A stretch of DNA of 64,000 nt from Phycisphaerales bacterium. GTDB lineage: Bacteria; Planctomycetota; Phycisphaerae; Phycisphaerales; SM1A02. The stretch is taken from assembly GCA_028278245.1 (NCBI GenBank), contig JANQEQ010000138.1, forward strand, positions 1 to 64,000, written 5' to 3'. The position numbers and the translations under genes were made by a program. The notes beneath the pieces were generated by a model. The model made no database searches and was not told the origin of the DNA. It was given only the letters and a program-made list of their open reading frames with translations. Shown in pieces: positions 15,427 to 59,252 of this stretch (positions within the stretch are counted from its first letter, which is position 1; the number at the start of each line of letters is the position of its first letter).

Positions 15427-15523
15427 GGGAGTGTCAGCACGCCTGGTGGCGGCCACGGGCTTCAAACCCGTTGTGGGGCTTGGAGATCAGGTCCCAGGTG
15501 GGTTCGATTCCCATCCACTCCCG
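15427..15523 (+). tRNA. selC: Selenocysteine tRNA (anticodon UCA)
   Basis: 97-nt tRNA with anticodon loop CTTCAAA (anticodon UCA, reading UGA), stem ACGGG/CCCGT, an extended D-arm, a very long variable arm and T-arm GTGGG-TTCGATT-CCCAT. Acceptor GGGAGTG (15427-15433) pairs with CACTCCC (15516-15522), discriminator G. With the T-stem this gives the unusually long coaxial arm typical of bacterial tRNA-Sec; the expected eighth acceptor pair is a T-C mismatch. Its location next to selA fits. Confidence 0.95.
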
Positions 15524-15778
15524 CTTTTCGTGATCTCATCAACTGCACTGACGACTTTTCTGCCGATTGGAGGTCATAACATGATCAGATTACCCAGAGT
15601 GACATAGGTGGCGATAAAGTCGTTTCTCAGGAGCCACAGGTCTACATTGCGAGGTTTTAATATTTTTCATTGCCATTTTACTGTCCAAGTCGGTATCTTC
15701 GGGGAGATACAAGAGCTATCGGCTCACCGATGCACGGCTGTAGGTGTGCTCACTATCTTTCTAACCAGGAGAAGTTGA

Positions 15779-52780: not shown

Positions 52781-53427
52781 AGTGGACAGATGTGGTGTGT
52801 CTTAAATAATCTCGCCGTCCCAGCGGTAACCAGGACGGCGAAGGAGGAGAAAGAAGAAAGGAGGAAAGAAGTAGGGACTGGGGTAATTACTATGTGGGGT
52901 CTAATCCAGACGAAGTTTACCCATTTAACCATAATATTTGCCAAATGATGGCTCTTTGGCCGTGTTGATGGAGCGGCGACACTCCTCTTGTTTTGAATCC
53001 GTTCAATTGGCATATGCGCTGACACATGCCGTCTCTCCTCAAGACAATCTCACTTATCCATGTATGTCTATCGGCGTACACTGTGCGGTTTCTTCACTGC
53101 TGTCAAATTGAAATGCTTCCACGACAACACTCAGATTTCTGAGAATAATACGTAAATCACTGATAATAAACAGATTACAAGAACACATTAAAATCCACAT
53201 TCTGGATAAATTTGACAGCTAGATCATGCAAAGAACATTCTCGGATTTGGCATGTTTGCATTCTGTGAGCGTCGAATATGTGCGGTGAAGTGTGTGGCTG
53301 TGTGGGGGGGAGCGAGCCGGCGACTGTGTCGCCGCTTTCGTGTGGGGGGCGTTGTGGGGGGGTAGTGTGGGGGGTCACCACATCACGCTGTTTTTCGTCT
53401 AACGCAGATCTGCATAAACTTACACTG
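52781..53427 (+). other. 647-bp intergenic region: hairpin, purine tract, composite repeat
   Basis: Between the macro-domain gene and thiL. Contents: hairpin CGCCGTCC / GGACGGCG (52813-52840), a purine-only tract (52836-52872), an AT-rich central stretch, and the composite G-tract repeat (53290-53376) just before the thiL start. No convincing gene; one small leftward frame (53020 region, MCQRICQLNGF) has an AGGAG site but no homology I can name. No TPP riboswitch motif seen. Confidence 0.6.
53290..53376 (+). repeat. Composite G-tract/palindrome repeat, copy B
   Basis: G-tract GTGTGTGG-GTGTGGGGGGG (53290-53310), GAGCGAGC, perfect palindrome CGGCGAC-TGT-GTCGCCG (53318-53334), then GTGTGGGGGG (53340-53349), TTGTGGGGGGG and GTGTGGGGGG ending near 53374. 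Same order as copy A at 35883-35967. It ends 50 bp before the thiL ATG; an ORF frame running through it is coincidence. Confidence 0.75.
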
Positions 53428-55022: not shown

Positions 55023-55057
55023 ATTGAACTGGGGAAAAACTGTTAATATCAATCTTG

Positions 55058-55177
55058 GGGGGTGGGGGTGGTGGGGCGGATCGAAACGGACACGACCTAA
55101 CACTTCTCCAACATGATTTGGAAAGGTACGCGTATTTACTAATCGTGTGGGGGGGTGGGGGTGTGGGGGGGGTGAGC
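55058..55177 (+). repeat. Two G-tract clusters around the 3' end of the Fur gene
   Basis: Cluster 1 GGGGGGTGGGGGTGGTGGGG (55058-55077), cluster 2 GTGTGGGGGGGTGGGGGTGT (55145-55164) then GGGGGGGG. The second overlaps the last codons of the leftward Fur gene and encodes AHPPHTPTPPHD on the minus strand. Same simple pattern as the G-tracts of the composite repeats, without the palindrome. Confidence 0.6.
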
Positions 55178-55695: not shown

Positions 55696-56880
55696 GTGTT
55701 AGATCATACACAAAAATTGAGGATCCTGGCTTTTGAGCCGTTTGACTCCGGTTCACACTGCGCTATTCGGGAGTCAATCACCCAGCACTCACACCACCAG
55801 TGGACCTGGCTGACGCAGCCCGGCCGGAATTGGAAGTGGCGAATGAGGACCGCAGCCCTGGAGATGATTGAGGATGGTAAGAAGAAAGGGCTGCTGATCA
55901 GTGAGGATGGGGAGAGCGTGGGGGGATGTGGGGGGTTTGAGTTGATTTTCACCACGTCATTGCTCAGTGCCGCTGATCTGCGGGCAAACCTGCCCCGTGG
56001 TCTGTGGGACCTGCCCCTGATCCTCTCCATGCACGAAAACCAGGTGGCGTACCCGTATCGTTATTCTGAGGGCGAGGAGAATGGTGGGGGATCGGAATGT
56101 GTGGGGGGGCGAGACAGCCATTTTGCATTGACGAATTTGACTTCACTGTTGACCGCTGATCTGGTCATCTGGAACAGCAACTGGAACCAGGATTCGTTTC
56201 TCCTCGGCATCCAGGACATCCTGAAACACCATCCGGACAACAAACTCGGCAACTGCAACGAAACCATCAAAGCAAAAAGCACAATCATCTGGCCCCCCAC
56301 ACAAATCCCGGAACTTGATTCTTGTGTGTACTCTGCCGCTGGATCAGATGAAAGTGTGGGGGGTGGGGGTGGGGGAATTTTACATAACTCCGTCAGAGTC
56401 GTTTGGCCACACCGGTGGGAGCATGACAAGGGGCCGGGCGAATTGCTGGAAATCGCCGACCGTTACACGGAGCAATACAACCTGCGGTGGATCCTGCTGG
56501 GGGAGCAGTTCCAGACTATCCCCACCGAAATGCAGCAGTTCATTGAGCGCTGGTCAGCCCGCATCGACCACTACGGCTACGTCAAAGATCGCGCGGAGTA
56601 CAACCACTGGCTCACTCAGGCAGACTGGGTGCTCTCCACCGCTCAACACGAGTTCTTCGGCATAGCCGTCGTCGAGGCGCTCCTGGTCGGCTGTTTACCC
56701 TGGCTGCCGAACCGTCTTTCCTATCCAGAGTTGTTGCCGGAGAGTGCGCGCGGTCTGAGTCCGATGCATCCGCCGGATGATCCTGATGCGGTGAAGCAAG
56801 CGATCAGGGAACACCTGCAGCCGGCCCTGGCGCATCATTCCGTTGCCAAACTCGATACAATTTTGAGCACCGTCAAGTAG
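55696..56880 (+). CDS. Glycosyltransferase like tRNA-queuosine alpha-mannosyltransferase (GTDC1/DUF3524)
   Basis: 394 aa from a GTG at 55696. Similar to QTMAN, which adds mannose to queuosine of tRNA-Asp: FEPFDSGSHCAIRESI and NWKWRMRTAAL at the start, LILSMHENQVAYPY, VVWPHRWEHDKGP (here VRVVWPHRWEHDK), and ISTAQHEFFGIAVVEAL (here LSTAQHEFFG). Animal members act on tRNA; the bacterial function has not been shown to my knowledge. Three G-tract expansions insert Gly-rich bits in frame: SVGGCGGFE (75), GGGSECVGGRD (131) and SVGGGGGGI (220), all at loops. Confidence 0.82.
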   Translation: MLDHTQKLRILAFEPFDSGSHCAIRESITQHSHHQWTWLTQPGRNWKWRMRTAALEMIEDGKKKGLLISEDGESVGGCGGFELIFTTSLLSAADLRANLPRGLWDLPLILSMHENQVAYPYRYSEGEENGGGSECVGGRDSHFALTNLTSLLTADLVIWNSNWNQDSFLLGIQDILKHHPDNKLGNCNETIKAKSTIIWPPTQIPELDSCVYSAAGSDESVGGGGGGILHNSVRVVWPHRWEHDKGPGELLEIADRYTEQYNLRWILLGEQFQTIPTEMQQFIERWSARIDHYGYVKDRAEYNHWLTQADWVLSTAQHEFFGIAVVEALLVGCLPWLPNRLSYPELLPESARGLSPMHPPDDPDAVKQAIREHLQPALAHHSVAKLDTILSTVK

Positions 56881-56891
56881 GGGGTGTCACC

Positions 56892-57311
56892 ATGGCACTG
56901 AGTGCGTTTGATAACAAAGACAAGAAACCCACCAAGGCTCAGCTTACCAAAGTCCTGGGGCGTTCCAGCAGCGCGTGGGATGATCTGGTTGATTTTGTCA
57001 GCAGAGAGTTTCCCCCCATTGCAGAAAACTGGCAATACTCCGGCTCAAACTGGGGCTGGTCGCTGCAGTTCAAGCAGAAGAAACGCGCGGTGGTGTATCT
57101 CACGCCGTGTGAAGGTTTCTTTTATGCAGGGTTTGCGTTGGGAGAAAAGGCTGTCAAAGCCGCACGCGATGCAGAACTTCCCGCTGAGATATTGACCATC
57201 ATTGACAGTGCGAAAAAGTACGCCGAAGGCCGGGCGCTTCGCATGGAAGTGAAATACAAAAAAGACCTGGCAGGGTTGAAGAAGCTGATGAAGATCAGGA
57301 CACTAGTTTGA
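56892..57311 (+). CDS. DUF3788-like small protein
   Basis: 139 aa, soluble. Landmarks: SSAWDDLVDFV, WQYSGSNWGWSLQFK and AVVYLTPCEGFFYAGFALG, with a lysine-rich end. This pattern is that of the DUF3788 family, which has no fixed role. It follows the mannosyltransferase-like gene by 11 bp, with a G-rich ribosome site, so the two may be co-transcribed. Confidence 0.8.
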   Translation: MALSAFDNKDKKPTKAQLTKVLGRSSSAWDDLVDFVSREFPPIAENWQYSGSNWGWSLQFKQKKRAVVYLTPCEGFFYAGFALGEKAVKAARDAELPAEILTIIDSAKKYAEGRALRMEVKYKKDLAGLKKLMKIRTLV

Positions 57312-57361
57312 GATGAAACTTTACCATAGGCATTTCATTAACATTTCACAAAACACTGGCA

Positions 57362-57496
57362 ATGAAGACATTATCCCAACTTAAAAAGGTGTTAAGTGAG
57401 TTGAATATTGAATTGGAACCTAGGATCATTGTGCCTGAGGGGATAGAGGAATCAGATATGATCGTCTTCAGGAATCTGATCATATCTACCTATTGA
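57362..57496 (+). CDS. Possible 44-aa small protein or gene remnant
   Basis: ATG at 57362, TGA at 57494-57496. Amphipathic start MKTLSQLKKVLSELN then ELEPRIIVPEGIEESD. No ribosome site and no homology I recognise. It may be real, or the end of a lost gene in an AT-rich patch. Confidence 0.25.
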   Translation: MKTLSQLKKVLSELNIELEPRIIVPEGIEESDMIVFRNLIISTY

Positions 57497-57586
57497 TTTT
57501 AATGATCCTATTACCTCAACTTGGTATTGCAGAAAACGAGATAATCAAATATACTTATGTAATCCTGTGACGAATGACTTTCGATC

Positions 57587-57740
57587 GCTCGTACACAGTG
57601 AGGCGGTTTGACTCGCCAAAGGCGAGGAAACTGTGCGGGTTAAACCCCACTGCAGGGGGTGATAGCCCCGTAGCAGCCTTGGATAACCCGGTGTAGCCGG
57701 GTAATGCTGGGCTCCCCCGATGGATTTGCCTGAGGGGGTT
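57587..57740 (+). other. Structured leader with four or more hairpins
   Basis: In order: outer stem CACAGT (57594-57599) / ACTGTG (57630-57635) enclosing CTCGCC-AAA-GGCGAG (57612-57626); ACCCC (57644-57648) / GGGGT (57656-57660), or alternatively GGGG / CCCC at 57656-57669; ACCCGG-TGTAG-CCGGGT (57686-57702) with CAGC / GCTG flanking pairs; and CCCCC / GGGGG (57714-57737). All stems precede the unknown gene's start. Could be a structured RNA, a leader or a repeat cluster; no known RNA family recognised. Confidence 0.5.
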
Positions 57741-57764
57741 TACCATTTTTGTGGGAGTGTTCTC

Positions 57765-59252
57765 TTGTTGGTAACGTTTCAATTTCCGATAGCGGATGCA
57801 CGACCATTCATCCCAGCGCTGGACCTAAATATGCCCGTACCAGATTGGCCCGAACCGAGCACGGCAATTGATCCTCAGTTCGTGCATTATTTTGGCAAGA
57901 TATGTGAGCGAATTCGAGATCCTGATGAGGCTTGGCCGGATGAGAGCAAGTACTGCCGTGCCCGACGAGGACTTCGGTTCGATCGACTGGAAACGCGTCA
58001 TGCCGGTCTTCCAAATCGTAGATTTTGCCCGCAATGCGCTTTTCGCAGACTCTTCTGTGATGGACAAGCCGTCGTGCGAATTGAGATTGGCATCGCACAT
58101 AAACACTCGGAATATCCACTTGAATACCTGGGAATCGAGGAAGTAATTACTATTGCTCAAGAGATTGCGGAAATACCAACCATTGTCCACGATCCGCTTG
58201 GAGATGCGAGGTTTCGGCCGATTTTAGCACAGGGCAAGCATCTTGCTCGACTATACACGCACGCCTCGGTAGCTCGAGACACGGCCGAACCATCTCTTGG
58301 ATTACAGTTGGTTGAAGCAGGCGACCCAATAATCTTAGTTGAACTGAAACCACACGAAGCAAATCTTACGGTCGAAGCTCTTAGGAGCGAAGGCTTGATT
58401 GAGATTGACAAAACCAGCGTCAATGGTGCCATTGCGCTCTTTTGCCGTCTCAGTACCAGTGCTGGATTTGCACCGATGTGGATTCTGCAAAAGGGCACCG
58501 CTACGGTCGGTCAACTCCGTAGCCTACGGCTATGTCTGACTCGCCTTCATGCCGAGAGAGAAGTTCTCGACTTGATTCTCAAACAAATTCATCGTCGGAG
58601 GTTGTTGAATCCACCTACCGAGGAAACTGTCGACTTGCTTGATCGGTACTTCAATGAACGCCTCAAACTCATCAATCGTAAAAATTGGGGTGGGATGAAG
58701 CAATCTGAGATTCTCGCAGCTTTCGATGCGACGCGTGAGGTGATTCAGCCCGCAGCACAGGCTCAGTTGATCTCAAGGTATCAAGGGTGTCGGAAACAGG
58801 TCTGGAAGAAAATCGAAAGATTTCAGGAACAGCGGCGCGCAATACGTATTGTCCCTGTGGTCTCATTCGAAGAAGGAGCAATCGACATGAGCAAGCATGT
58901 GAATGTCAGTGGTACAGGTAACATAGTTAATGTTGCAGAATACATGACAGGTGTTAAGAACACAGTCAACAACAACCTTGCTGAATCGGAAACGGACCCT
59001 CAGATCAAGGCGTTGATCAAACAGCTCAGCGAGGAGATTCAGCGTGTCGCGCCAAAGGTTGATCCGGGACAAATCAAGAAGATGGGCAAGAACCTCGAAG
59101 CGCTCAGCAAGGAGGTTGCCAGTGACGAGCCTGAACGCCGGTGGTATGAAGTTAGTCTTGATGGAATCAAGGAAGCCGCGGTGGCGGTAGGCGAGATCGC
59201 TACGCCAATTCTGACGACAGTCGGCAAGCTGGCTTCTATCCTGTTAGCCTAA
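57765..59252 (+). CDS. Unknown 495-aa protein with a motif-like 'SGTGNIVNV' tail
   Basis: TTG at 57765 (or 57768) with a GGGAG site 7 nt upstream; the ATG at 57720 lies in the hairpin and is rejected. Residues about 20-130 carry ARPFIPALDLN, DEAWPDESKYCRARRGLRF and a Cys motif FCPQCAFRRLFCDGQ that may bind zinc. Middle part is helical. A basic helical stretch (KQVWKKIERFQEQRRAIRI) leads to HVNVSGTGNIVNVAEYMTG and NTVNNNLAESE, then an amphipathic helix and a hydrophobic C-terminal helix (VGEIATPILTTVGKLASILL). Tails like this occur in uncharacterised bacterial conflict-type proteins, so a defence role is conceivable but not shown. Confidence 0.6.
   Translation: MLVTFQFPIADARPFIPALDLNMPVPDWPEPSTAIDPQFVHYFGKICERIRDPDEAWPDESKYCRARRGLRFDRLETRHAGLPNRRFCPQCAFRRLFCDGQAVVRIEIGIAHKHSEYPLEYLGIEEVITIAQEIAEIPTIVHDPLGDARFRPILAQGKHLARLYTHASVARDTAEPSLGLQLVEAGDPIILVELKPHEANLTVEALRSEGLIEIDKTSVNGAIALFCRLSTSAGFAPMWILQKGTATVGQLRSLRLCLTRLHAEREVLDLILKQIHRRRLLNPPTEETVDLLDRYFNERLKLINRKNWGGMKQSEILAAFDATREVIQPAAQAQLISRYQGCRKQVWKKIERFQEQRRAIRIVPVVSFEEGAIDMSKHVNVSGTGNIVNVAEYMTGVKNTVNNNLAESETDPQIKALIKQLSEEIQRVAPKVDPGQIKKMGKNLEALSKEVASDEPERRWYEVSLDGIKEAAVAVGEIATPILTTVGKLASILLA

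Follow-up and report, generated by a model that had tools for sequence, protein, structure and literature searches.

Together with the leader directly upstream of it, the gene described here probably forms a defence or toxin-antitoxin cassette that is controlled by an RNA and has no description so far. We propose that it is a mobile RNA-protein conflict cassette encoding an RNA-controlled receptor, and on this reading our judgement is evenly balanced. The gene lies in a 64,000-nucleotide stretch of a Phycisphaerales genome (contig JANQEQ010000138.1, positions 1 to 64,000), referred to below as the window. Its features are collected in Table 1.

Table 1. Features of the candidate cassette, in window coordinates.
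Feature	Position	Strand	Basis
Promoter-like sequence, TTGCAG, 17 nt, TATACT	57527..57555	+	-10-like hexamer at a spacing of exactly 8 nt from hairpin 1, shared with L004, L005, L006 and L048
Leader RNA hairpin 1, loop CTTTCGA (57578-57584)	57564..57598	+	covariation; loop in all seven close leaders
Variable hairpins of leader RNA	57599..57713	+	predicted fold; number and sequence differ among relatives
Leader RNA hairpin 3, terminator-like, then T-rich stretch	57714..57738	+	hairpin and loop conserved in close relatives
Coding sequence, 495 aa, TTG start	57765..59252	+	ten relatives with the N-terminal domain
N-terminal part, putatively receptor-like, residues 1-357	57765..58835	+	found in every member, the TIR fusion L026 among them
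Possible internal ribosome site and start, GAAGGAG ... ATG (58887)	58872..58889	+	Shine-Dalgarno-like site at boundary
C-terminal exchangeable module, ~120 aa, five helices	58887..59249	+	model pLDDT 89; also on Roc-COR and AAA proteins; PDC-M14B match

A rare, horizontally transferred gene family

The open reading frame is real, and a mechanical call placed it at 57720-59252. Because homologues begin at the LVTFQFPIADARPF position, TTG 57765 is the most likely start of the protein, which bears out the start proposed in the preliminary description; the upstream in-frame ATG at 57720 falls within the loop of a conserved hairpin. Searches with the whole protein gave no real match in Pfam, NCBIfam or PDB sequences and, fold searches included, no described family was matched, in agreement with the earlier proposal of an undescribed system.

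Ten further members with the N-terminal domain were found in Planctomycetota, KSB1, Marinobacter, Nitrosomonas, Streptomyces and Rhizobium, plus one truncated copy. Among full-length relatives, identity to the window protein was ~69% for L004 and L005 (Planctomycetota), 57% for L006 (Marinobacter algicola), 50% for L048 (from the window's own class), 43% for L008 (candidate division KSB1) and 34% for L025 (from a search of the genus Marinobacter), and plasmid copies in Nitrosomonas, Streptomyces and Rhizobium were 22-28% identical. The planctomycete protein L026, whose sequence is cut by a contig end, has only the N-terminal domain in common (29% identity). The truncated copy (L007, 7400-8360, Marinobacter) is a remnant with neither leader nor N-terminal half, but its tail frame is still open. 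The family is rare: beyond the known carriers it was present in 0 of ~397 Pseudomonadota and 0 of 81 further KSB1-phylum genomes, and phage records and viral contigs held no relatives.

In the tree, Marinobacter L006 branched among the planctomycete members, and nearer to the window than L048 did (support 100/99). Judged from this nested position, we therefore conclude that the gene has been transferred horizontally, which supports the acquisition suspected in the preliminary description. No convincing flanking repeats marking an insertion were found.

Defence-type genes occur near several relatives, given here as a plain listing and not as an enrichment. These are a type I methyltransferase-like gene near L005; an MkoA-like helicase gene directly upstream of L007, ending just before the remnant; PDC-S19 and a methyltransferase, a GajB-like helicase and a TnsA-type nuclease near L009; a HamB-like helicase and PDC-M58A near L011; and, divergently transcribed near L026, a patatin phospholipase matching CBASS-type effectors. 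Ordinary genes, and not defence-type ones, surround the copies in the window and in KSB1. The preliminary description's remark that functional neighbours are lacking is thus true in the window but untrue for several relatives. It had also named constant company of housekeeping genes, or a match to a known enzyme, as what would speak against its proposal; instead, five relatives lie beside or near defence-type genes.

The gene directly upstream in the window (56892-57311) encodes a DUF3788 protein (7.3e-29). Clusters of G runs such as GTGTGGGGGGGTGGGGGTGTGGGGGGGG stand just upstream, between and inside genes (53290-53380, 55050-55175, 55907-55941, 56100 and 56343-56377), some of them in frame within a glycosyltransferase-like ORF (55696-56880), and these dense runs look like G-quadruplex-prone inserts. 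ARAGORN called a tRNA-SeC (TCA) at 15427-15524, and the organism may use selenocysteine.

A conserved RNA upstream of the gene

When the upstream DNA of relatives was aligned, conserved blocks were confined to the region from ~57564 through the start codon. Over seven sequences, hairpin 1 had a covariation score of 0.498 compared with 0.228 ± 0.053 after shuffling (0/500), in shuffles that take no account of relatedness among the seven; 8 of its 11 pairs changed on both sides, and 74% of cells were paired, against no more than 39% when slid. The covariation was also seen in a hand-made alignment of five leaders. The seven-nucleotide loop has the consensus C[AT]T[CT][CA]G[AT], and the loop with three closing pairs was found in 7/7 close leaders, from three phyla, with five further occurrences across ~180 kb of scanned loci, the chance expectation in leaders being about 0.05.

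In five of the seven, a hexamer resembling a -10 element stands at a distance of exactly 8 nt upstream of hairpin 1 (TATACT, TATGCT, TAGAAT, TATTTT and TACACT), and this fixed spacing places the predicted transcript start at hairpin 1; a consensus promoter scan returned a promoter-like site at the place of the hexamer in L005 only. Hairpin 3 follows the pattern CCCCC..GG-NTTNN-CC..GGGGG and is succeeded by a T-rich stretch and then the ribosome-binding site. The T-tract is weak in the window, interrupted in most members and seven T in a row in L048, and a simple terminator scan misses the hairpin because its loop is long. The window leader folded with a z of -3.7 relative to shuffles, compared with -0.4 to +1.0 for controls around the gene; values for L004, L005, L006 and L008 were -2.1 to -5.1, and those for L025 and L026 were weaker (-1.4 and -1.6). 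Rfam gave no match for the leaders of the window, L048 and L026, and no repeat array was present in 57300-57765.

The comparison of leaders establishes, at the level of sequence, a conserved RNA with covariation that is co-inherited with the gene. The preliminary description had spoken of an AT-rich leader, which holds for 57312-57563, but the 200 nt directly before the gene are GC-rich (0.57) and fold strongly, and the conserved structured RNA at 57564-57738 had been overlooked.

The four most distant members lack hairpin 1, and the family as a whole does not share a single homologous RNA. Two of the plasmid copies have a tRNA-like RNA on the strand of the gene. The Rhizobium one (Rfam tRNA match of 54.8 bits) ends 49 nt before the start codon and has acceptor-stem mismatches and an intact anticodon arm; the Nitrosomonas one (29.3 bits, gathering score 29) ends 55 nt before the start, and its anticodon loop is 4 nt long. 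Identity between the two proteins is about 26%, and DNA similar to either RNA was found nowhere else in 72,556 plasmid records. A tRNA-like RNA was not seen in the Streptomyces and TIR members, leaving two cases in all, and such an RNA as a feature common to all members was rejected, the close clade having none. No described system joining a tRNA-like RNA with TIR or antiphage function was found in the openly accessible literature.

Transfer RNA genes are common insertion sites, and in these distant members the tRNA-like sequences could be ordinary tRNA genes that served for integration and have nothing to do with the protein. The intact anticodon arm of the Rhizobium sequence and an integrase gene nearby speak for this explanation. 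Against it, strand is the same and distance nearly the same in two unrelated plasmids, the Nitrosomonas anticodon loop has 4 nt, and nothing similar occurs elsewhere in the plasmid collection; we consider it somewhat unlikely.

N-terminal part and exchange of the C-terminal module

The model of the N-terminal ~357 residues shows mixed beta strands and, after them, long helices (whole-chain pLDDT 75.8); the last ~120 residues were modelled as a separate five-helix module of high confidence. Structure searches of PDB and viral structures (E <= 0.001) gave no fold match for either part, and no known RNA-binding fold was recognised in the window protein by Pfam and fold searches. The N-terminal domain, which is undescribed, is putatively receptor-like. 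The window protein does contain both FCPQC and RRLFC, to which the preliminary description had drawn attention as a Cys motif, but relatives have FRPRC, FHPIC or MVPRV at the Cys site; the pattern is therefore no signature of the family, and a Cys-based metal site was ruled out. A HEPN reading of R255-x6-H262 is disfavoured, with the His lost in L011 and no supporting fold match.

The same tail ends the LRR-Roc-COR GTPases L027, L029, L035 and L050, the AAA ATPase L031 and a Caballeronia protein (L012), and it occurs in L049, a protein with a different N-terminus. L026 carries a TIR domain (PF13676, 2.6e-11) instead of the tail, and the window protein has no TIR domain. From the tail on other proteins and the TIR in L026, we therefore suggest that the C-terminal slot carries exchangeable effector or adaptor domains; module swapping at the C-terminus is established by these domain comparisons. 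PADLOC matched only the tail, and weakly (3.8e-5), to positions 151-262 of the phage-defence candidate profile PDC-M14B, whereas the N-terminal half of that profile (about 1-140) is unrelated to the window protein. In the same genome, a 322-aa protein (L041 1501-2469, G000:C177) matches the N-terminal half of PDC-M14B, and its end looked nuclease-like by eye.

Bacterial AP-GTPase systems have a C-terminal slot with exchangeable effector or adaptor domains (PMC8195603). Like effector-associated adaptor domains and AP-GTPase (Roc-COR) systems, the present module is small, non-catalytic and helical, ends diverse receptors and occupies a slot that can also hold TIR (PMC7159879, PMC8195603), a likeness at the level of class. 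As expected of an adaptor domain, this small module is common to conflict receptors and effectors (Roc-COR, AAA, L012 and L049). Unlike in those systems, the module is joined here to an undescribed N-terminal partner that is linked with a leader RNA, and no second gene bearing the tail, and hence no partner protein with the same domain, was found in this 89%-complete genome. The preliminary description had called the tail amyloid-like or adaptor-type. The position of the module, which Roc-COR GTPases, an AAA ATPase and PDC-M14B also carry, sustains the adaptor-type reading; HVNVSGTGNIVNV and NTVNNN, on which the description had remarked, both occur, show good conservation within the close clade and lie inside the modelled five-helix domain.

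At the tail boundary, an ATG or GTG with a Shine-Dalgarno-like site (anti-Shine-Dalgarno duplex energy of -6 kcal/mol or better) was found in 15 of 17 tail genes, compared with 39 of 416 control windows from the same genes (p = 5e-13, a value affected by the 17 genes not all being independent). L049 (416-2032), a 538-aa planctomycete protein, has a Shine-Dalgarno-like sequence before the Met of its tail. When synonymous codons were redrawn, the combined p was only 0.024, and the signal is weakened because Gly/Glu/Lys-rich residues, through amino-acid composition, explain most of it. This control weakened the internal start as a firm claim, and a separate tail product from such a start is plausible.

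Proposed mechanism and alternative readings

In the AbiF (Abi_2)/RCd22 system of Clostridioides difficile, a promoter, a structured RNA of ~100-130 nt, a terminator hairpin and the protein gene follow one another, the transcript starts 168 nt before the start codon, and the RNA acts by binding the protein, which it silences both in cis and in trans (PMC12373285). The order here is the same, with a terminator-like hairpin and a predicted transcript start ~200 nt before the start codon, but the window protein lacks an Abi_2 domain (Pfam) and the leader lacks the abiF RNA motif RF03085 (Rfam). Type III toxin-antitoxin systems (ToxIN, CptIN and TenpIN) likewise have an RNA gene before the protein gene, with a terminator between the two for which the terminator-like hairpin 3 is a candidate here, but no ToxN-type protein was recognised here (Pfam, PDB sequence and fold searches) and the leader has no tandem-repeat array. 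On protein and RNA features, the candidate cassette falls outside both the type III toxin-antitoxin and AbiF families, and the likeness is one of working principle only.

By analogy with the AbiF/RCd22 gene order, we infer that the N-terminal part binds the leader RNA and is silenced by it, and the RNA as off-switch, an antiphage or toxin-antitoxin role and internal translation are proposed in the same spirit. The promoter would drive a structured RNA of ~175 nt ending in the terminator-like hairpin, and read-through past that hairpin would express the receptor-like protein. The N-terminal part would bind its own RNA, which would keep the protein inactive or limit its synthesis. Infection or another insult would disturb the RNA, allowing the C-terminal module to act, this module being the signalling or effector tail common to Roc-COR and AAA conflict proteins, or TIR in one relative. 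The tail may also arise alone via the internal start. Counted in favour of the cassette were the covarying hairpin 1, the fixed -10-like hexamer, the terminator-like hairpin, leader folding, the tRNA-like RNAs, the TIR swap in L026, the tail on Roc-COR and AAA proteins, the nesting of L006, the defence-type neighbours and the gene order in common with AbiF/RCd22. Counted against it were the absence of hairpin 1 from four distant members, the restriction of tRNA-like RNA to two, the fact that no known RNA-binding fold was recognised, the window and KSB1 copies without defence neighbours and the fact that no second tail gene was found in the 89%-complete genome.

The main rival is a purely cis-regulatory leader, which would serve a conflict gene as an attenuator or an autogenous translational operator and play no part as an RNA of its own. 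The leader does stand directly before the start codon, with hairpin 3 near the ribosome-binding site, and termination may be partial given a T-tract interrupted in most members; a separate RNA better accounts for the terminator-like 3' end, which is conserved, and for the tRNA-like bodies of distant members, and we regard cis-control alone as rather unlikely. It is unlikely, in our estimate, that the family is a class of immune receptors gated by a tRNA mimic or other structured decoy RNA from the protein's own leader, in which phage-caused loss, cleavage or modification of the RNA would free the N-terminal sensor and so fire the exchangeable tail or TIR.

That the protein is an ordinary one, with a metabolic or regulatory role and a regulated 5' UTR, would suit the genes around the window and KSB1 copies, but sparse presence, cross-phylum transfer, the TIR fusion and a tail common to Roc-COR and AAA proteins make this improbable. 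We judge it very improbable that the tail signals by amyloid templating, the protein being an effector or receptor switched by prion-like contact. Strings of the form G-N-x-[IV]-N are conserved at the start of the tail, and the full-chain model is disordered just before them. BASS motifs, however, are described as 20-40 aa long and as lying at the C- and N-termini of Bell and NLR proteins that neighbour each other (PMC8086366), whereas the motif here is not a terminal peptide of that length but runs into a folded helical domain of ~100 aa; moreover, the window has no adjacent NLR gene, and the genome, at the completeness given above, no second carrier of the motif.

Only a few defence and toxin-antitoxin systems work with an RNA partner, and several of these brought a new control principle. 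The present family brings an undescribed N-terminal domain, a covarying RNA that travels across phyla and a C-terminus exchanged with TIR, and its analysis identifies a tail common to Roc-COR and AAA conflict proteins. If the proposed RNA-controlled cassette is correct, the family would offer a concrete, minimal cassette for asking whether bacteria gate immune effectors by structured or tRNA-like RNAs.
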